NCBI RefSeq assembly: GCF_021412625.1
Contig: NZ_JAKCFI010000001.1
Coordinates: 806,001 to 870,000 of the forward strand
Source: Myxococcus stipitatus
Lineage (GTDB): Bacteria; Myxococcota; Myxococcia; Myxococcales; Myxococcaceae
Length of the DNA stretch: 64,000 bases
Direction: 5' to 3'
Part shown: positions 47,060-57,188 of the stretch, piece by piece
Numbering within the stretch: the stretch's first letter is position 1
Layout of the letters: each line of letters opens with the position of its first letter
Made by a program: the position numbers and the translations under genes
Notes under the pieces: model-generated
Databases searched by the model: none
Told to the model about the DNA's origin: nothing
Seen by the model: the letters and a program-made list of their open reading frames with translations, nothing else

Positions 47060-48496
47060 TCACTCCGTGATGAGCTCCGCGCTCACGAGCGAGGAGGGCT
47101 CGAGCTCCGGCCCGAGGAGGAAGTAGGTGCTCAGGAACCTCGAGGTCACCTGGCATCGGAGCGCTCCCATGTCATCGGGCTGGAGCGCGTAGACGGAACC
47201 CAGGTGCCGCTCGCCCAGCGAGTACACGTGGTGCAGGAGCCGCGGAGCCCCACCGGGGTCCGAGCGTCGCTCGAGGGCGAACGGCTGACTGAAGCACTCG
47301 TCCGGATAGGCAATCGCCAGTCGCTGGGTGCAGCCTGGATCTGCGAAGTGCTGCACCGCGAGGTAGCTCGCGGCGGGAATGCACCGCAGCTGGGCGTCAC
47401 CCGCCAGGAGGAACTCACACTCCACACCCCACCGCGTATCGACAGGTTTCCACGGCAGCGTCAGCGAGGGGGCCACGGAGAGGAGGCTCTCCGTCAACTG
47501 GCCCCTCGCGTCGCCGTGCACGACGGCGGCGCCGACCCAGGACGACGCCGGCGATTCCTCTCCGCGGCGGTAGGCGAAGCCGGGGACCTCCGAGGTGCCC
47601 GACCGGACGTCATGACAGGCGCCGTCCCTCGCGAATTCATAGACGCTCTCGAGCACCTCGCCCACCTCGTGGATGGACGTGGTCGTCCCGCAGTGGTCGA
47701 TCGTGGTGTCGCGGATGAAGCGAAGGGAGGTGCAGGTGCTCGCGGCGGCCCGTTCGGCGCAGCGCTCGTCCGCGAAGTAGCCGAAGGCACCTTCGCTCAC
47801 GGACACTCCAGACGGCAGGCAGCGAACGCTCGAGTCACTCGCCAGGGCGAACGTGCACGAGGTGCTTCGGGCATCGTCCTCGATGTCGAGCAACGCGGAC
47901 GACCCGTCCTCGCCTTCGATGACCTGGACCGCCAGGCCCGCCTCGCGGGCCGCCTGCCGCGCCTCGCCACGCACGAAGGTCCACTCCGGGACGGGCTCGC
48001 CCACCTCGTAGGCGTACGCGGCCCAGGAGGGCAGGGGCTCACTCACACAGGGGCCCTCCGGGGAGGTCTTCCGGAAGGTCGCTCCCATCACGCGCTGCCC
48101 CAGGTAGCGCAAGCGCCATCCCTGCTCACAGGAGGTCGCCTGCATCCGCAGCGCGGTGGCGGGGCGTTGCTCCTCGAGGAAGTACGCGACGGGCCGCGTG
48201 CAGGTGTTGTCCGCGAAATAGCCCACGCGGGACTCGAAGAAGACCTGCGCGTCGGGGAGGCAATACAGCGCGCCCTCGGAGGTGAAGCGCCGCCAGTGAC
48301 ACGGCTGCCCCGTCACGAGGTCCACCTGCTCGAGAGGCTGGCGATAGCCCCCTTCGGCGGACAGCCACCTCACCTGGAGCCGGCTGCCGCTCCGGAAGAG
48401 CTCGAGGGGACGCGCCGGCCCCGGCTCGGCGTCTCCGCTGCAACCCGTGCTCGTCACGACGACACCTGCCACCAGGACTCGGAACCACTGTCGCAT
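47060..48496 (-). CDS. Lipoprotein with three Cys-containing internal repeats
   Basis: This 478-residue exported protein has a lipobox-like STGC with Cys19. It contains three related segments, each with a small residue pattern (Y/R)C(L/I)P, then about 12 residues, then (Y/H)FAD, two residues and Cys: around YCLPDAQ..GYFADNTC, RCLPSGV..GYFADERC and RCIPAAS..QHFADPGC. Each repeat probably forms one disulfide-stapled unit. I do not recognise a family or an active site. It is the first or only gene of its minus-strand unit and lies beside other envelope proteins. A surface or periplasmic binding role is plausible but unproven. Confidence 0.72.
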   Translation of the reverse strand: MRQWFRVLVAGVVVTSTGCSGDAEPGPARPLELFRSGSRLQVRWLSAEGGYRQPLEQVDLVTGQPCHWRRFTSEGALYCLPDAQVFFESRVGYFADNTCTRPVAYFLEEQRPATALRMQATSCEQGWRLRYLGQRVMGATFRKTSPEGPCVSEPLPSWAAYAYEVGEPVPEWTFVRGEARQAAREAGLAVQVIEGEDGSSALLDIEDDARSTSCTFALASDSSVRCLPSGVSVSEGAFGYFADERCAERAAASTCTSLRFIRDTTIDHCGTTTSIHEVGEVLESVYEFARDGACHDVRSGTSEVPGFAYRRGEESPASSWVGAAVVHGDARGQLTESLLSVAPSLTLPWKPVDTRWGVECEFLLAGDAQLRCIPAASYLAVQHFADPGCTQRLAIAYPDECFSQPFALERRSDPGGAPRLLHHVYSLGERHLGSVYALQPDDMGALRCQVTSRFLSTYFLLGPELEPSSLVSAELITE

Positions 48497-48713: not shown

Positions 48714-50246
48714 CTAGAAGCGGGCCTGGAGCAGCGTGTTGAAGCCCAGCGCGTGCGGCTTCTCGAACGTGGGCTGGGCAATGCCCGTCACGTCGTCCCG
48801 GAACGTGGTCCGGTTGGTGTCGTACGTGTAGTAGACCTCGCCCACCGCGGCGACGGAGTCCGACAGGTCCCAGCGGAAGGTGGCCTTCGCGGAGTAGATG
48901 GGCTCCGCCTCGCACGCGCCGGAACCACCGCACGTCTCCGGCAGGATGCTCAGCTGGTTCACGTCACGCACCACCACCGTGCGCGTGCCGACGAGGTTGT
49001 CCGGCGGGTTGTTGCCACCCAGGATGGTGGTGGGGCTGCGGAAGGAGGCCGGCCGCTGCACGCCGACGATGAAGCCCGGCGTGAAGTGCAGGGCGGGGAA
49101 GTGGTAGTCCGCGCCCAGCGCCAGGAACATCTCCGGGTTCAGCTTCGTGCCCTCGGGGAAGTCCTGGAACGGCGGGAAGCCAGGCACCTCGAACTGGATG
49201 AAGGACAGGCTGCGGTACAGGCCGAGCAGGCTGATGCGCAGGAAGTCGAGCTTCGCGCGGGCCTGGAGGGCCACGGCCGTGGCGCCCTGGGGCTTGGTCG
49301 CGCCGAACTCGTCCGGCTTCTCCAGCGTCTGGGACAGGTAGCTGCCCTCGAGCGACACGGAGTAGGACAGGCCACCCGGGTACTGCTCCGGCGCGAAGAA
49401 GCGCTGGTAGATTTCCGGGTCGTTCTTGTACAGGCGGAAGTCCACGCTCGTGCCCACCGGCACGCCCACGTGGTAGACGACCTGCGCGGACAGACCCGCC
49501 GCGTTCACCGGAGCCTCGACGCCCAGGGTGGCGAGGCCCGGCACCAGGCCCTTCTGGAAGTAGCCGCCACCGGCCTCGACGCGCAGCGTGTCCAGGATGT
49601 CCCAGCCCGCGCCCGCCATGACACCGTAGAGCGTCTCCTCCTCGAGGATGAGCTCGTTCTGCACCAGCGCCGTCTTGCCGCCGATGTACGCGTACCACTT
49701 GTCGCGGGTGATCTGCAGCTTGGCGCCCGGCACGCCGTTGGCCGTGGAGCGCGTGGTGAACACGCCGCTGCCGCCCCAGGAGATGCGGTACGCGTAGCCC
49801 AGACGGAAGCGGTCCGCGGACACCGGGAAGCCGACCAGCGAGATGCCTTCCTTCTCACCCCAGCCCGGCGGCTGGTAGTTGAGCCGGATGTAGCTGGAGT
49901 TGTCCTGGATGGCCACGCCACCGTTGGGACGCTCCAGCATCAGCAGCGTGAGGGCGGCCTCCGTGGTGAGCCCCTCGAAGAAGGCGGGGGCCTTCTTGTA
50001 GAGCACCACGTTCGACAGCGACTCGAAGCCGGAGAAGCGGGTGTTGAAGTTGTCGTAGAACTGAGTGTTCTGGTTGCCCGCGCCAAAGCGCGCGTTCGGG
50101 CTGTTGGGCGTCGTCTCACCCGAACCCGCCAGGACGTTGTCGTCAGCGAAGACGAACGACAGGCGCGTGTCGACGAAGTCACCAGCCCAAGCGGGCGCAC
50201 TCAAGGAGATAAGCCCGGTCAGGGCCAGCGTCTGCAGCGTTTTCAA
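48714..50246 (-). CDS. Outer-membrane beta-barrel protein of unknown function
   Basis: The 510-residue product has a signal peptide ending at AWA and then many amphipathic strands separated by polar turns. The final residues, FNTLLQARF, end in phenylalanine as expected for barrel insertion by the BAM complex. Strands such as AKLDFLRISLLGLYRSLSF and AKATFRWDLSDSVAAVGEVYYTYD are clear by eye. One loop carries two cysteines (ETCGGSGAC), perhaps a disulfide. No specific porin family is recognised. It lies 86 bases downstream of the large lipoprotein gene on the same strand and is likely the third gene of the phosphoesterase module. Confidence 0.75.
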   Translation of the reverse strand: MKTLQTLALTGLISLSAPAWAGDFVDTRLSFVFADDNVLAGSGETTPNSPNARFGAGNQNTQFYDNFNTRFSGFESLSNVVLYKKAPAFFEGLTTEAALTLLMLERPNGGVAIQDNSSYIRLNYQPPGWGEKEGISLVGFPVSADRFRLGYAYRISWGGSGVFTTRSTANGVPGAKLQITRDKWYAYIGGKTALVQNELILEEETLYGVMAGAGWDILDTLRVEAGGGYFQKGLVPGLATLGVEAPVNAAGLSAQVVYHVGVPVGTSVDFRLYKNDPEIYQRFFAPEQYPGGLSYSVSLEGSYLSQTLEKPDEFGATKPQGATAVALQARAKLDFLRISLLGLYRSLSFIQFEVPGFPPFQDFPEGTKLNPEMFLALGADYHFPALHFTPGFIVGVQRPASFRSPTTILGGNNPPDNLVGTRTVVVRDVNQLSILPETCGGSGACEAEPIYSAKATFRWDLSDSVAAVGEVYYTYDTNRTTFRDDVTGIAQPTFEKPHALGFNTLLQARF

Positions 50247-50332
50247 GTTCCCTCTCCACGGAGCGGCCCGCTCGGGATCGCTCCTCCCTGCGTCCCGGGG
50301 TCACCGGGACGCGAGTTCTTTCAAAAAGTGAG

Positions 50333-52324
50333 TTACGGCGTCACGCAAGGCTTGATGGGGCGCGGGCACTCCAGGCCCGGACCGGGGTAGCAGCACACGT
50401 CGTCCTGGTCCCGGGGCTGCACCACCCACCGGGGCCGCGCGGCGCTGACGTGCCGCAGATGGCCCGTCACGTCGAAGGTGGCCGCGTGCAGCAGCTTGCA
50501 CTGCTGCTGACGGTCCGCGTCGCCGTCCGTCTCGCTGCAGTTGACCACCAGGTCCGGCACGGCGTCCTTCATCACCACGTTGATGCGCGAGCGCGGGTGC
50601 TGCGACACCGTGCAGTTGGCCGTGGTCGTCGTGTCCTTCCCGGACACCCAGACGTAGGACTCGCTCGCGGCCATGACGTGGTCCAGGCGGGTGAGCGCCG
50701 CCAGCTCCTGCGTCCCCTCCGCGGCGGGCACGCTCGTGCCGCCGAAGCGCACGCTCACCGGCTCGTCGCACGCCACCGCGACCGTCACGCCCGCGGCGAA
50801 GCCGTTGGTGGAGCGCGTCCACTGCTCGGTCGCCGGGGCCACCGGGGGCACCGCCGCCAGCGCCTGGAGCCGCGCGGGCACCGAGTCATCCAGCCCCGCG
50901 GCCGGCTGGCCCGGCGGGTTCATCTCCACCACGAACTGGCCGAAGCTGTCGTACGTGTTCTTCTCCGCGCAGACCTGGTTGGCGAACTGGCCCACGCCCA
51001 GCGTGCAGTCGATGTTGCACTGCCGCTCCGGCACGTCCGGGTCGGACGGGTTGTCCGTACCGCAGGAGCCGAACGTCCCCGCGCGCGTGTCCGGGCAGAA
51101 GAAGGGGACCGTGTTGTTGCCGTTGGCGTCGCAGTTCTTGAAGACGGTGGGGAACTTCACCCGGCGCACCTTCACCAGCGACGACTCCAGGCTCTCCATC
51201 TTGTAGTTGCCGTAGCTGTAGCCACACAGCGGGTCCGTGACGTACGGCGACGCGCTGTAGCCACACAGCCGGCCGTTGATCTCCGTCGGCGGCGCCAGCG
51301 CCAGGTACTTGTTCCACTCGGACTGGGGCAGCAGGCGGACCTTCTCGCGGATGCTCCACGACGGGAAGGTCAGCTGCGTGGTGGCGGTGAACTCCTGCAC
51401 GGAGCCCGCGATGGTCCACAAGAGGTCGCCCGGGTCCAGGCCCTCCGGGAAGGAGTAGTTGTAGATGTAGATGGAGTTGAAGCGGCCCGGGTAGTAGCCG
51501 CTGGGCTCCGGCGTCTGGGTGTTGCCGCCGCTGACGGAGCCTTCCTTGATGCGGCAGGCGGTCAGGTCCGTGACGTAGAAGCCGCCGGGGTCCGTGCCCG
51601 TCACCAGCAGCGTCACCGGCTGGTCGTGGTTCGGGTCGTCCGGGGCGCAGTTCTGCTTGAGCACCGCGCCCGCCTCCGGGTTGACGCCGATGCGCATGAA
51701 GGTGCCGTTGTACGCGGTGAGCTGGTCACCGTTCTGGGGCACCTGCACCGTGGCGATGGTGGGCTCCTCGAAGAAGATGGAGCGCGACAGGCCCGTGGCG
51801 TACGAGCGCGACGCGGGCTCCTGGGGCAGCTCCCCGGCGATGACCTCGCCGTTGGAGTAGTCGACCTCGACCGGCTCGTCCTCCACCCAGACGTGGACCT
51901 CGCCGTAGAGCTGGCCGGTGCGCACCGTGCCGGAGCCCTGGCCCTGGTTGAGCTGGGACCAGCGGTAGCGGTACGCGCCCGTCAGGTTGCCCGGCACCGT
52001 GCGGAAGGAGACCGGGTTGTTGAACTCCGGCATCGGCTGGCCGTTCACGTCGACGGCGACGACGTCCAGGTCGATGTCCACCGCCGTGCGCGGCAGCGCC
52101 AGGCGGCAGTCCGGCGTACCCCGGACCTCGAGGGGCACCGCGTTCAGCGAGCCGTACCGGGCCAGGCACGAGCTCACCACCGGCAGCGCCGCGCGCGGGT
52201 TGGTGTCCGCGGCGTAGAAGCCCTTCACCGTCACCTGGAAGGACCCCACGCCGGAGGGCTGTTCGGTTTCCTTGGTGTAACAGCCGGCCAAGGCGAGGGC
52301 CGACAGCAGCATCAGTCGCTTCAT
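50333..52324 (-). CDS. Large surface lipoprotein of unknown function
   Basis: This 663-residue protein begins with a clear lipoprotein signal (LMLLSALALAGC, Cys15). The mature part looks beta-rich with several immunoglobulin-like stretches and 18 or so cysteines, many in the second half (CGYSASPYVTDPLCGYSY, QCNIDCTLGVG, CKLLHAATF, CCYPGPGLECPRPIKPC). I recognise no catalytic motif. Its ATG shares one base with the stop of the upstream phosphoesterase gene (TGATG), so the two are translationally coupled and their products probably work together at the outer surface. The final 30 residues are Cys/Pro-rich. Confidence 0.75.
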   Translation of the reverse strand: MKRLMLLSALALAGCYTKETEQPSGVGSFQVTVKGFYAADTNPRAALPVVSSCLARYGSLNAVPLEVRGTPDCRLALPRTAVDIDLDVVAVDVNGQPMPEFNNPVSFRTVPGNLTGAYRYRWSQLNQGQGSGTVRTGQLYGEVHVWVEDEPVEVDYSNGEVIAGELPQEPASRSYATGLSRSIFFEEPTIATVQVPQNGDQLTAYNGTFMRIGVNPEAGAVLKQNCAPDDPNHDQPVTLLVTGTDPGGFYVTDLTACRIKEGSVSGGNTQTPEPSGYYPGRFNSIYIYNYSFPEGLDPGDLLWTIAGSVQEFTATTQLTFPSWSIREKVRLLPQSEWNKYLALAPPTEINGRLCGYSASPYVTDPLCGYSYGNYKMESLESSLVKVRRVKFPTVFKNCDANGNNTVPFFCPDTRAGTFGSCGTDNPSDPDVPERQCNIDCTLGVGQFANQVCAEKNTYDSFGQFVVEMNPPGQPAAGLDDSVPARLQALAAVPPVAPATEQWTRSTNGFAAGVTVAVACDEPVSVRFGGTSVPAAEGTQELAALTRLDHVMAASESYVWVSGKDTTTTANCTVSQHPRSRINVVMKDAVPDLVVNCSETDGDADRQQQCKLLHAATFDVTGHLRHVSAARPRWVVQPRDQDDVCCYPGPGLECPRPIKPCVTP

Positions 52325-54834
52325 CACTTCACCCTCCGGCCGATGCGGCCGTCTTCCACGGCGTCGGCGATGGGCGTCGCCGACGGGTTCGTGCAGAAGT
52401 TTCGCAGCTGCTGCGTCACGGTGCCGCACACCGGGTTGGTCCCAGCGAGGACCTCGCGGCAGTCGCAGCGGCCGGTGTACGGGCCGGGGGACTCCGCGCA
52501 CGCCGCCTGGGCCTCCGCCACGGTGGAGACGCCGGGGATGTCGCAGCCCGCCGGGTTGTAGCCGCGCGAGGCCAGGTCCGCGCAGGTGCACTGGCCCACC
52601 TGCTTGGCCGCGATGCAGGCCGCCCGGGCCTGCTCCGGCGTGGTGACCTCCGCCACGCCGCAGTGGCTGGGGTCGAAGCCGTTGCGCAGCAGGTCGCCGC
52701 AGCTGCAGCTGCCCACCTTCGCGTCCAGCTCGTTCTCGTAGTCCTGCATCTCGCGGCAGGCGGCCTTCAGGCGATCGTTCACCACCCACTGGCCGTTGAC
52801 GAGGCTGCCGCAGCGCTGGCCGTCCGCCTTGTTGCCGCGCGTGGCGTAGCCCGCGTTGATGTCGTCGCAGGTGCAGAAGTCCTGCATGTAGCCGATGAGC
52901 GAGTCACGCAGCGAGATGCCCGTCTCCTGGCGCGTGGTGTTGCGCTTGAGCACGTTGAAGCCCGAGCCGCCCTTGGCGATGTAGTCGTTGACCGCCACGC
53001 GGTAGGTGCCGAACGGGTTGAGCGGCTTGCCGCCGATCTGGATGTCCGTGCCCGGGTTGGCGTAGCAGCGGCCCTCGCCCGGGGCCGTCGTCTCGTCCTC
53101 GATGCACTGCCAGGCGGCGTGGCCCTCGCGGTTCTCCGAGGGGCAGTCCGCGGCGGCGAGCGCCTTCTTGCAGGGGATGCGCAGGTCGTTGAGCTGCACC
53201 TGGGCGCAGTCCATGGTGAACTTCGCGCCGGAGATCTGCGCCTGGCTCACGCAGCCGCGCTCGCTGGAGCGCTCGGCCACGAAGTCGAACATCTCCTGCA
53301 TCTCCTTGCCGGACAGGTACATGATGTTGATGGTGTTCTCGAACGGGAACACGTTGAACATCGACTCCTGGGAGACGACGCCGGCGTAGAGGTTGTCGCG
53401 GATGCCCAGCGAGTTGGTGAGGGCCATCTGCGCCTCGACGCGGCGGCGCTTGCGCATGGAGTCCGCGGCGATGTTGCCCAGCGGGGAGTCACCGCCCGTG
53501 GAGTTATTGCGGCGCGCCACGTCCGTGGGCGCGTAGGCGAAGATGTTGGTCAGCTGCAGCCGCATGTCCATGCCGATGATGTAGGGCTGCAGCAGGTGGG
53601 TGGTCTGCCGGTCCTCCTGCTCCTTGCACGCGTCGATGGCCGCGCGCACCGCCGGGGTGGAGATGAACTGGCCGTCCTCCCAGAAGATGGACGAGTCGTA
53701 GCGGTAGGCGCGCATGGCGTCGTTGCACCACAGGCCGTCGATGGGGAACGCGCGGTAGTCCTGGCTGATGACCTCGCCGCCCTCGCCCTCGCCCCGGTGC
53801 TCGGGCATCTTCACGACCAGCTCCAGCCGGCCCACGTACTTGGCGAAGGCGCCGGAGTGGGAGAGCACGACCTTGCGGCCGCTGGGGTCGGTGAGCAGCT
53901 GCGGCGGGTTGAGCACCACGTGCAGGTGGCCGCCGAGGATGACGTCCACGCCGGAGACGCCCGGGATGAACACGCGGACGACGGAGTTCTCCTCGCCCTC
54001 CGGACCGAACCACTCCAGCACCTGCCACGGGCTGTGCTCCCGGCGGATGAAGGAGCGAGCGCGGCCGTACTCGTAATAGGCCTCGTAGCCCTGGATGACG
54101 TCCTGGTCCTCCGTGAGGCCCAGGTGGCTGACGATGACGATGAGGTCCGTCACCGGGCGCAGCAGGCCCACGTAGGCGCGGACGACCTCGTTCTGCTCCA
54201 GGGGGGTGGCCTGCAGGCTGTTGCCACCCTCGACGATGGAGTTGAGCGAGGAGATGTTCGCCATGCCGATGACGCCCACCCGCAGGCCCTTGATGTTGCG
54301 GATGGTGTACGGCGCGGTCTCCAGCGCCGTCTCGTTGCTGCCGTTCTGCCGCCAGTCGTTCCACTGGTAGTTGGCGGCCAGCAGGGGGAAGGAGGCGTAG
54401 CGCTTGGCCTGCTCGGTGAAGTTGAGCGCGCCCGCGTCGAACTCGTGGTTGCCCACCACGGCCGCGTCCAGGCGGGCCTGGGACAGGAACCGGAACTCCA
54501 CCTCGCCCGTGTTGAGGTTGAAGATGGGGGCGCCCTGGAAGCAGTCACCCGAATCGAGGTGGATGACCCGGTCGCCCTTCTCGCGCTCGCGCTTGAGCAG
54601 CGCCGCGATACGGGTGGCGCCACCGAACGGGCCGGCCTCCGGGACGAGTCCCAGGTCCTGGTCCGTCTTCAGCGGCGCGAAGTCGTAGGGGATGAGGCGG
54701 GAGTGGATGTCAGAGGTATGGAGGAGCGTCAGGCGCACCTCCTGCCCCTCGAGGTTGTAGTCCTGGCCTTCCACCACTGGCATGCACGAGGCAGTGGCCA
54801 GGGCGCAGATGAGGCCGAGCAGAAGGCGACGCAT
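52324..54834 (-). CDS. 5'-nucleotidase-family metallophosphoesterase with a cysteine-rich tail
   Basis: The 836-residue exported protein (lipobox-like ATASC, Cys17) has the UshA/5'-nucleotidase architecture. The dimetal motifs are intact: HTSDIHSR, DSGDCFQG, GNHEFD, VSHLG and GGHLHV. The substrate-binding C-domain shows GDSPLGNIAADSMR, FPFENTINIMYLSGKEM and VAVNDYIAKGGSGFNVLK. It should hydrolyse nucleotides or similar phosphoesters outside the cytoplasm. Beyond the domain, residues about 652-836 carry four units of the form CxC-(D/E)-(L/I/V), later Gly/Pro, then Cys, near 654, 710, 749 and 790, not normal for UshA. The ATG at 54834 places the lipoprotein signal first. Confidence 0.88.
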   Translation of the reverse strand: MRRLLLGLICALATASCMPVVEGQDYNLEGQEVRLTLLHTSDIHSRLIPYDFAPLKTDQDLGLVPEAGPFGGATRIAALLKREREKGDRVIHLDSGDCFQGAPIFNLNTGEVEFRFLSQARLDAAVVGNHEFDAGALNFTEQAKRYASFPLLAANYQWNDWRQNGSNETALETAPYTIRNIKGLRVGVIGMANISSLNSIVEGGNSLQATPLEQNEVVRAYVGLLRPVTDLIVIVSHLGLTEDQDVIQGYEAYYEYGRARSFIRREHSPWQVLEWFGPEGEENSVVRVFIPGVSGVDVILGGHLHVVLNPPQLLTDPSGRKVVLSHSGAFAKYVGRLELVVKMPEHRGEGEGGEVISQDYRAFPIDGLWCNDAMRAYRYDSSIFWEDGQFISTPAVRAAIDACKEQEDRQTTHLLQPYIIGMDMRLQLTNIFAYAPTDVARRNNSTGGDSPLGNIAADSMRKRRRVEAQMALTNSLGIRDNLYAGVVSQESMFNVFPFENTINIMYLSGKEMQEMFDFVAERSSERGCVSQAQISGAKFTMDCAQVQLNDLRIPCKKALAAADCPSENREGHAAWQCIEDETTAPGEGRCYANPGTDIQIGGKPLNPFGTYRVAVNDYIAKGGSGFNVLKRNTTRQETGISLRDSLIGYMQDFCTCDDINAGYATRGNKADGQRCGSLVNGQWVVNDRLKAACREMQDYENELDAKVGSCSCGDLLRNGFDPSHCGVAEVTTPEQARAACIAAKQVGQCTCADLASRGYNPAGCDIPGVSTVAEAQAACAESPGPYTGRCDCREVLAGTNPVCGTVTQQLRNFCTNPSATPIADAVEDGRIGRRVK

Positions 54835-54975
54835 CAGGAAATTCCGTGTTCCGGTAGGACTGCAGAAGTAGAGCGCGCGCAAGGTAGAGGATTGGACACT
54901 GAGGGGCAAGCAACGCCGCCATGGCATCCCCTACTCGCACTGCGCGGGAAGTCTACTCCAGGAGAGAATGAAGAC

Positions 54976-55656
54976 ATGGGCCAGAGCCATTCCAGTGTGA
55001 CTGACATCGAGATCATCGAGGATTTCTCGGCGACGGCGCGGTGCGACGAGGGCTTCCTGCGAGTGAAGCGGCTGCGCTGTCGCAACCGGCGCGCGGACGG
55101 GACGTCATCACCCGTGTATCGAGTGGACGTGGTGGACCGGCCCCGGTTGGACGCGGTGGCGGTGCTCGTCTATCGACGCGGTGCGGCGGGACTGGAGGTG
55201 TTGACGCGGATGAACCTGCGGCCCGCGGCGTACTTCCGGAAGGAGCAGCGGGACGCGATGACGGTGCCGGATCCGGCGGCGGGCTACCTGCGGGTGGAGG
55301 AGATCGTCGCGGGGCTGCTGGAGCCGGAGGACAAGGGGGAGCCGGGGCTGCGGCGGCGGGCGGCGGAGGAGGTGCGGGAGGAGGCGGGGTACCGGGTGCG
55401 GCCGGAGGACATCCAGTTGTTGGGGGGGGCGTTCTTCCTGGCGCCGGGCATCCTTTCGGAGAAGGTGTTCCCGGCGGCGGTGGACGTGACGGAGGTGGCG
55501 CAGGAGGAGCCGGAGGGAGACGGCTCGCCATTGGAGGAGGGGACGCTGCTGCGCTGGCGGCCGGTCATGGAGGTGTTGGAGGCGTGCCGGCGCGGTGACA
55601 TCCCCGACGCGAAGACGGAGGTCGCGCTCACGAGGTTGCTCGCCCGTCAGGGATGA
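54976..55656 (+). CDS. Nudix hydrolase
   Basis: The 226-residue product has a Nudix domain at about residues 40-200. The box ends EEVREEAGYRV near residue 135, keeping the metal-binding E-E pair and the AGY segment but with Glu in the place of the usual first Arg of REUxEE. A downstream FFLAPGILSEKVFPAAVDV stretch resembles ADP-ribose or sugar-nucleotide pyrophosphatases. The start has AGGAGAGA about ten bases upstream of the ATG at 54976. It is divergent from the phosphoesterase operon, about 140 bases apart. Substrate unknown. Confidence 0.85.
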   Translation: MGQSHSSVTDIEIIEDFSATARCDEGFLRVKRLRCRNRRADGTSSPVYRVDVVDRPRLDAVAVLVYRRGAAGLEVLTRMNLRPAAYFRKEQRDAMTVPDPAAGYLRVEEIVAGLLEPEDKGEPGLRRRAAEEVREEAGYRVRPEDIQLLGGAFFLAPGILSEKVFPAAVDVTEVAQEEPEGDGSPLEEGTLLRWRPVMEVLEACRRGDIPDAKTEVALTRLLARQG

Positions 55657-55730: not shown

Positions 55731-57188
55731 ATGTCGTCGCTGCCGCCGTGGCTGGCCAACCTGTTGCCCATCCTCATCCTCCTGGGCGCCATCTCGCTCG
55801 TGCTGGCGCGGCTGCCCAAGGTGGAGCTGGGCCACACCGACGCGTTCCGGCGCCGGCGCTTCTTCAACTGGTTCCCGCTGGGGATGACGTACGCGTTCCT
55901 CTACATGGGGCGCTACAACCTCAACGAAGCCACCAGCGCGATGAAGAGCCACCTGTCCAACGCGGACTTCGGCACCATCTTCTTCTGGGGGACGCTCGTC
56001 TACGGCTCGGCCTTCCTCCTCAACGGGCCGCTGACGGACCGGCTCGGCGGGCGCAAGACCATCCTGTTGTCGGCGGCGGGGTCGTCCGCGGCCAACGTGG
56101 CCATGGGCTTCGTCGTCTACAAGGTGCTGACGGATGGCTGGGTGCCGCCCGGTGGGCTCGTGGTGACGATGTCCGTGCTCTACGCCGTCAACATGTACTT
56201 CCAGAGCTTCGGCGCGGTCTCCATCGTCAAGGTGAACGCGTCCTGGTTCCACGTGCGCGAGCGCGGCCAGCTGGGCGGCGTGTTCGGCATCCTCATCTCG
56301 CTGGGCGTCTACTTCGCCTATGACTGGAGCCGCTTCATCAGCAAGGCGGCGCCCACGTACTGGGTGTTCTTCGTTCCGGCGGCCATCCTCGCGGCCTTCG
56401 TGGTGCTGGACTTCTTCGTCATCCGCGACACGCCGGGCCAGACGGGGCACCCGGACTTCGACACGGCGGACGCGTCCAGCGGCGACACGGGCAGCGCGAG
56501 CGTCTGGGACGTGTTCGTGAAGATGGTGACCAACCGCACCATCGTCATCATCCTGCTGGTGGAGTTCTGCAGCGGCTTCATGCGCAACGTCATCATGCAG
56601 TGGTACCCCAAGTTCGCGAAGGCGACGGGCATCGGCGAGACGTTCGTCGCGGCCAACTGGGGCATGCTGCTGTGCGTGGCGGGCATCACCGGCGGCATGT
56701 TCGCCGGCGTCATCAGCGACCGCGTGTTCGACTCGCGCCGCGGGCCCGTCTCCGCGGTGCTCTACGCGGGCATGTCCACGGGCGCCGTGGCCGCGCTGTT
56801 CCTGCTCGGCAGCCCCGCGCTCGGCTGGACGGTCATCTTCATGTCCCTGTGCGTCATCGGCGTGCACGGCATGCTGTCCGGCACGGCGAGCATGGACTTC
56901 GGCGGCAAGAAGAACGCGGGGCTGGCGGTGGGCATCATCGACGGCGCCGTCTACGCGGGCACGGCGCTGCAATCCATCCTGCTGGGCTCCATCCTCCCCA
57001 AGGGCGAGCTGGCCAAGGACCCGGCCAACTGGGGCAACTGGCCCCTGGCCATGCTCCCCCTGTCCTTCGCGGGATTGTTGCTGGCCACACGGGTCTGGAA
57101 CGCGAAGCCGCAGCCCAAGGGGCAGCCGGTGGCGACGCCGCAGGTCGCCGCGGCGGCGCAGGCTCCCAGGACCGGCACCGGCGGCTGA
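55731..57188 (+). CDS. MFS transporter of the organophosphate antiporter type
   Basis: The 485-residue protein has twelve predicted membrane helices in two six-helix halves. The sequence near residues 50-60, LGMTYAFLYMGRYNLNEA, and the LNGPLTDRLGGRK loop after the second or third helix resemble the GlpT/UhpT (organophosphate:phosphate antiporter) family, in which a conserved Arg in helix 1 binds phosphate; the Arg of YMGRYN fits that place. It should exchange a phosphorylated metabolite for phosphate, or hold a related function. A Pro/Gln/Ala-rich tail follows the last helix. A strong hairpin follows the stop. Confidence 0.82.
   Translation: MSSLPPWLANLLPILILLGAISLVLARLPKVELGHTDAFRRRRFFNWFPLGMTYAFLYMGRYNLNEATSAMKSHLSNADFGTIFFWGTLVYGSAFLLNGPLTDRLGGRKTILLSAAGSSAANVAMGFVVYKVLTDGWVPPGGLVVTMSVLYAVNMYFQSFGAVSIVKVNASWFHVRERGQLGGVFGILISLGVYFAYDWSRFISKAAPTYWVFFVPAAILAAFVVLDFFVIRDTPGQTGHPDFDTADASSGDTGSASVWDVFVKMVTNRTIVIILLVEFCSGFMRNVIMQWYPKFAKATGIGETFVAANWGMLLCVAGITGGMFAGVISDRVFDSRRGPVSAVLYAGMSTGAVAALFLLGSPALGWTVIFMSLCVIGVHGMLSGTASMDFGGKKNAGLAVGIIDGAVYAGTALQSILLGSILPKGELAKDPANWGNWPLAMLPLSFAGLLLATRVWNAKPQPKGQPVATPQVAAAAQAPRTGTGG

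Follow-up and report, generated by a model that had tools for sequence, protein, structure and literature searches.

A 64,000-nucleotide stretch of the Myxococcus stipitatus genome (10.1 Mb; C1:806001-870000, hereafter the window) carries three consecutive genes, which we call A, B and C, that encode two predicted lipoproteins and a predicted outer-membrane barrel. All three lie on the minus strand between positions 48714 and 54834. The stop codon of A and the start codon of B overlap by one base (TGATG), and 86 bases separate B from C (coordinates are collected in Table 1). An initial annotation of the window, made from its sequence alone, had described this same-strand trio and its TGATG junction without specifying the strand, and both were borne out. 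It had called A a phosphoesterase lipoprotein, which agrees with the lipobox and with Pfam matches to Metallophos and 5_nucleotid_C. 'Cys-rich', applied to B, is a fair term (21 of 663 residues), and it fits A too (27 of 836 residues, 16 of them in the tail). The label of outer-membrane barrel suits C, which has a signal peptide, a C-terminal Phe (the protein ends ARF) and a predicted fold matching known channels, as described below.

The three genes are kept together across myxobacteria and their relatives. In a search of 195 Myxococcota genomes, with an E limit of 1e-60 for A and of 1e-3 for the other two, we found A in 121, B in 115 and C in 119 genomes. At least one member was present in 122 genomes, A together with C in 118, all three in 112 and none in 73 (the overlap of the lists was counted by hand). 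Joint loss was seen in genus g7, where three of the four genomes (G091-G093, not G094) are without all three genes. The order A-B-C, contiguous and on one strand, was found in 30 of 40 fetched loci, and in four others A and C flanked a gap of 1.1-1.5 kb in which no B was recognised. The gap of L103 contains an open reading frame (ORF) that matches the OB domain; B is therefore sometimes merely too divergent for detection. Two further loci had C on a separate contig (L071) or an orphan C paralogue (L090). Among 78 named loci, 65 include 4.5 kb or more of sequence upstream of C, and in 59 of these A and B stand in order beside it. The trio is one conserved unit, the arrangement of which is beyond chance; the conserved synteny that the initial annotation had suggested looking for is widespread, and the trio is not absent from relatives. 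In a search with C, among the best 80 of 226 relatives, the closest named one is Myxococcus dinghuensis (C 99% identical), and the titles are Myxococcota or 'Deltaproteobacteria', save one Comamonas sp. and one Proteobacteria label. The C gene in the record titled Comamonas sp. (L116, BNCN01000003.1) shares 90% identity with that of Myxococcus, and the record probably comes from Myxococcus under a wrong label. A plasmid search with C gave no match.

Protein A belongs to the family of UshA and CD73, and its solved relatives are 5'-nucleotidases. Both domains exceed their Pfam cut-offs: Metallophos with E 6.9e-9 and 36.9 bits (cut-off 21.5), and 5_nucleotid_C with E 1.2e-28 and 100.7 bits (cut-off 23.6). 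We aligned 38 of 42 candidate A sequences, leaving out four for which no start was found or the locus did not contain A. Residues D42, H44, D97, N129, H130, H237, H303 and H305, which we take to match the metal and catalytic positions of UshA, are invariant in 38/38 sequences, and Asp133 is kept in 37/38. Judging from this intact catalytic centre, A is very likely an active phosphoesterase.

Protein B of the window has no match in Pfam or NCBIfam, and single members of its family gave weak matches only in a search of curated libraries. Nothing useful came from Foldseek alone or from a sequence search of the PDB with B. In the predicted structure (predicted local distance difference test score, pLDDT, 89.2) an immunoglobulin (Ig)-like domain precedes an OB-fold core, and a C-terminal segment seems to complete the OB pattern. 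Since structural matches to B are weak, we base the OB-fold assignment on sequence. As seeds for a profile we took 31 OB domains of large secreted proteins encoded in this genome or elsewhere in the phylum; one of these proteins has a partial match, under the cut-off, to the ExeM/NucH DNase family (NF033681). Of 35 B proteins, the profile hit 14 with E<1e-3 and 30 with E<0.1, whereas 700 shuffled B sequences and 72 proteins of the A and C types gave no hit. The HHalign value was 98.1% for B, compared with 2.0% for A and 0.1% for C, which served as controls. By these comparisons, B contains an OB-fold of the secreted-nuclease type, and is a probable nucleic-acid-binding protein.

Protein C is the best conserved of the trio within the genus (90-99%). 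It shows no detectable sequence similarity to any solved chain and matches no Pfam family above its cut-off. Its predicted structure (pLDDT 83.7; stretch 275-284 is unreliable) has the fold of substrate-specific diffusion channels of the LamB/OprD/AlgE type. The best structural neighbour is maltoporin LamB (Z 21.1, root-mean-square deviation 3.9, 341 residues aligned), followed by Campylobacter jejuni MOMP, OprD-family channels and AlgE (Z about 18-20.5, over about 300-350 residues), while general porins related to OmpF score lower (Z about 17). The first long loop (residues 36-76) has a conservation, 0.69, that is uncommonly high for loops of porins, and 30 paralogue matches among those listed, from Myxococcaceae and one related family, begin after residue 41. 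We considered whether A or B might dock on this segment; the idea is weakened by second copies of C in another family (G004, G005, G006; L179), which retain it. An orphan C paralogue (G000:C5:734300-735598; L090:9294-11507, minus strand; 38% identity) has no A or B adjoining and is without the conserved segment after strand 1.

The layout is consistent with transcription of the trio as one unit. A block upstream of A, TTGCCC and TACCTT separated by 17 nucleotides (nt), is strongly kept across Myxococcus, Corallococcus and Archangium in an alignment of the window with 16 further loci (of 17 requested). A scan for sigma-70 sites yielded no promoter there. On the minus strand, neither the B-C gap nor the region after C gave a call for an intrinsic terminator, and the sole terminator-like match on that strand is a weak one inside C (50172-50157). 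Separate transcription units, which the initial annotation had named as a refuting result, are not what the sequence suggests.

The gap between B and C folds into two hairpins at loci of Myxococcus, Pyxidicoccus, Corallococcus, Hyalangium, Citreicoccus and Archangium. Our alignment of this RNA holds 25 of 33 B-C intergenic stretches; we left out the duplicate L112 and seven stretches with no two-hairpin pattern or an uncertain start (L133, L134, L136-L140), and the covariation counts therefore apply to selected rows. In these 25 sequences 91.8% of cells pair, as against 34-47% when the structure is slid, and 6 of 18 pairs changed on both sides, where shuffled alignments averaged 2.1. Of five measures, four lay above every one of 500 shuffles, which leave the relatedness of the sequences in place, and 32 of the 500 attained the fifth; the covariation term of RNAalifold itself was near zero. 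A covariance model found one strong copy in the genome (85.6 bits; the next scored 15.6) in a scan in which 150 of 20608 candidates were scored. It also matched non-training loci L072, L085, L086, L107, L108 and L109 with E 3e-8 or better, and L106 with 0.006; several of these loci could be closely related to sequences in the training set. Rfam had no family at gathering score for this RNA, with two sub-threshold matches (E 0.17 and 0.33). A plain terminator of the trio was rejected as an explanation, because the only terminator-like call in the gap lies on the plus strand and C follows on the minus strand. As the element ends in a purine-rich stretch resembling a ribosome-binding site just before the TTG of C, a role in setting the level of C is a natural guess.

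Other genes near the trio vary. In certain distant lineages an OB-rich ORF stands directly upstream of A, on the same strand; it is found in 7 of the 40 fetched loci (L081-L083, L092, L094-L096) and in 7 of the 78 named loci, two sets that overlap in organisms. The encoded proteins have two or three OB domains each, with a lamin-tail domain in 3/7 and thrombospondin-3 repeats in 2/7; the one inspected for a lipobox has it. In the window this place is filled by a Nudix-like gene, which is kept beside the trio in Myxococcaceae. Further along, a major facilitator superfamily (MFS) gene (55731-57188, plus strand) is nearest to GlpT/PgtP organophosphate antiporters, below their cut-offs; it stands near the trio in 5 of 32 compared loci, all from the family of the window by their handles. 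Just downstream of C lies a DUF7481 lipoprotein gene (47060-48496, minus strand), three tandem relatives of which occupy the corresponding place in a second Myxococcus-type genome of this genus (L107:1982-6985); the gene was found at none of the other loci of the 40-locus set.

Table 1. Positions, within the window, of the three genes, their predicted domains and adjoining features
Feature	Coordinates	Strand	Remarks
Gene A, UshA/CD73-type metallophosphoesterase lipoprotein	52324..54834	-	836 amino acids; ATG at 54834; lipobox TASC (TASC|MPVVEG)
A, Metallophos domain, residues 36-306	53917..54729	-	Pfam; D42, H44, D97, N129, H130, H237, H303, H305
A, 5_nucleotid_C domain, residues 440-631	52942..53517	-	Pfam; altered pocket L476, E499, S624
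A, Cys-rich C-terminal tail, residues 627-836	52327..52956	-	16 Cys, four CxC
Gene B, predicted Ig + OB-fold lipoprotein	50333..52324	-	663 amino acids; ATG at 52324; lipobox LAGC; 21 Cys
B, predicted Ig-like domain, residues 24-187	51764..52255	-	structural match weak (Z 7.8)
B, predicted OB-fold core, residues 188-327	51344..51763	-	model and sequence profile
B, predicted inserted beta-sandwich/jelly-roll, residues 482-576	50597..50881	-	missing from distant B proteins of alignment A2
B, putative last OB strands, residues 616-646 (VTGHLRHV..ARPRWVVQPRD)	50387..50479	-	judged by eye
Two-hairpin RNA element (alignment A3)	50244..50333	-	hairpins 50312-50290 and 50284-50260, then Shine-Dalgarno-like 50257-50249
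Gene C, predicted outer-membrane barrel of LamB/OprD/AlgE type	48714..50246	-	510 amino acids; TTG start at 50246
Promoter-like block before A, TTGCCC, 17 nt, TACCTT	54881..54909	-	conservation only
Divergent Nudix-like gene, neighbour outside the core	54955..55656	+	TIGR00052, E 2.3e-7, below its cut-off

Probable orthologues of the trio in Myxococcus xanthus offer a link to published work. In two complete genomes of the genus (G122 and G136) the trio lies about 222 kb from the nearer rho-like gene, and at a gene density of about 1.24 kb per gene this distance corresponds to about 180 genes. Rho is MXAN_2479 (PMC6627406), and the same spacing therefore leads to MXAN_2659-2661, which are a barrel, a lipoprotein and a hydrolase in consecutive numbers, i.e. 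in the order C, B, A. MXAN2470 and MXAN5361 (named 5'-nucleotidase in the accessible text of PMC3222651) were rejected as the orthologue of A, since the spacing from rho is about 180 genes and not nine. With a simple pattern for Rho, no such gene was found in the window or in six loci. The same text reports MXAN2659 as an outer-membrane beta-barrel with 17 peptides in the outer-membrane fraction, and MXAN2660 as an outer-membrane lipoprotein with six peptides (PMC3222651). The accessible text of PMC9548883, citing Kahnt et al. 2010, counts MXAN_2661 among the hydrolytic enzymes that co-culture with Sinorhizobium meliloti upregulates and that occur in outer-membrane vesicles. If the assignment is right, the trio would reside in the outer membrane or its vesicles, and one member would be upregulated during predation.

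The explanation we favour, with confidence that is about evenly balanced, is that the trio forms an outer-membrane scavenging module. It would probably harvest phosphorylated nutrients, such as nucleotides, from lysed prey; according to the accessible part of PMC8475336, secreted 5'-nucleotidases and nucleases enable bacteria to live on DNA. In such a module, separate secreted nucleases would first cut the polymers, and B, anchored in the outer membrane, would hold nucleic acid or oligonucleotides by its OB-fold. A, anchored beside B and perhaps in physical complex with it on the outer face of the membrane, would strip phosphate from nucleotides or related phosphate esters, and C, as a substrate-specific channel, would admit the product (nucleoside or phosphate) to the periplasm. 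A single promoter before A probably drives all three genes, the hairpins before C probably allow a different, higher level of the porin, and the module would be used during predation.

Each part of this scheme has a known likeness. As in UshA and CD73, A has Metallophos and 5_nucleotid_C domains with all metal and catalytic residues, and is predicted to be secreted and membrane-anchored; unlike them, it has a Cys-rich tail and a fixed partnership with B and C. The OB-folds of B and of the protein upstream of A are of the kind found in Bacillus YhcR and in extracellular nucleases of the ExeM/NucH/SWAN type; for YhcR such an OB-fold (PMC4118848), and for a YhcR-type protein a 5'-nucleotidase C domain (PMC7860044), are reported in the accessible texts. 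The trio differs from these nucleases in splitting the functions over separate proteins and in adding a porin. C resembles LamB, OprD (Occ) and AlgE in predicted fold and size but not detectably in sequence. Surface lipoproteins paired with an outer-membrane transporter are also present in SusCD-like systems; a Pfam-type domain search found no TonB-dependent receptor or plug domain in C, which is a porin-type barrel instead. The parts are of known kinds, and we found no description of their assembly as a system in the open literature, the search having mostly covered papers outside subscription.

Several observations weigh against the module as drawn. Asp506 of CD73 hydrogen-bonds both ribose hydroxyls (accessible text of PMC8677862), and the corresponding position of A, equated through the GGDG motif in alignments with solved relatives, is Ser624 in 38/38 sequences. 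Asp stands there in two aligned solved relatives; 5_nucleotid_C occurs at 10 loci of the genome that holds the window, and six other paralogues there with listed motifs have GGDG in three cases, GGGG in two and neither in one. Further, PFGN of the known enzymes is PFEN in A (38/38), and N-x-G-G-I-R is N-[ST]-L-G-I-R, with Leu476 in 36/38. Because of the replaced Asp, we call A a family enzyme rather than a proven 5'-nucleotidase; as its catalytic centre is intact while the nucleoside side differs, nucleotides are a putative substrate of a very likely phosphoesterase. The structural match of the OB-fold of B is weak (Z 6.6 to a HIN domain; the sandwich reaches Z 8.9), the B of the window on its own scores no better than E 0.06 with the OB profile, and OB-folds can bind other ligands. 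Curated libraries revealed no nuclease domain in A, B or C. A and B occur without C in 4 of the 40 fetched loci (L070, L087-L089), and 6 of the 65 named loci are incomplete beside C, three having B only and three neither A nor B. On the side of M. xanthus, MXAN_2659-2661 are probable orthologues, their numbers being derived from order and spacing, and the upregulation of MXAN_2661 is stated without a printed fold change in the accessible text of PMC9548883. The initial annotation had seen in the trio a nutrient-capture unit releasing nucleosides or phosphate outside and admitting them through the barrel. That idea has partial support. The conserved unit, the intact two-metal centre, the channel fold, the OB-fold and the probable location and regulation of the M. 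xanthus proteins favour that idea; the altered pocket and the missing nuclease domain tell against its nucleotide-specific form.

The strongest competitor, somewhat unlikely in our estimate, is that the trio harvests another phosphorylated compound, such as the phosphate of a sugar or lipid or a cofactor of the dinucleotide type, with A as a retuned phosphoesterase and C as the channel for its product. The three pocket changes, fixed or nearly so across the phylum around an intact catalytic centre, would then be explained, and the best matches of C are indeed sugar and carboxylate channels, although a common barrel fold is no proof of substrate. The Nudix-like and antiporter-like MFS neighbours in Myxococcaceae also fit; they are, however, divergent, and unseen in distant lineages save for one Nudix match in L096, and the OB-folds of B and of the upstream protein point to nucleic acid.

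Two other roles appear improbable. OB-fold lipoproteins in the outer membrane might serve as surface structure, anchoring extracellular DNA, which is reported from M. xanthus biofilms (PMC9073016), in the biofilm matrix or in cell-cell contacts, with feeding secondary; this would leave a catalytically intact phosphoesterase and so well conserved a porin unexplained. Alternatively, C might mainly carry or display A and B on the cell surface rather than act as a nutrient channel, as the encoding of one barrel with two lipoproteins and the conserved segment 36-76, missed by many paralogue matches, would suggest. Against display, C has the fold of narrow substrate channels, some loci keep A and B without it, and the second copies of C in another family retain the segment. 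Mere co-location without joint function is very improbable: gene order alone is no proof of a complex, and vertical inheritance by itself gives correlated distances (0.88-0.93, computed without a control gene), but presence, absence and order are common to all three genes over the phylum, down to their joint absence in g7.

The scavenging module also admits a bolder version, which we consider doubtful: a predation-induced, phylum-wide surface machine. Prey nucleic acid would be caught by the OB-fold lipoprotein, and the phosphoesterase, adapted to deoxy- or otherwise non-standard nucleotides, would supply a dedicated porin, the dosage of which a cis-acting intercistronic RNA would control. The trio would then be a split-gene, Gram-negative counterpart of YhcR with a channel of its own.

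Little is known of how predatory myxobacteria import what lysed prey releases, especially nucleic acids, through their outer membrane. The trio is a concrete and widely conserved candidate for such uptake, consisting of three deletable genes in a tractable laboratory species. The analysis gives a place to families B and C, both without Pfam models, and adds a candidate regulatory RNA, the effect of which on the level of the porin would be directly measurable.

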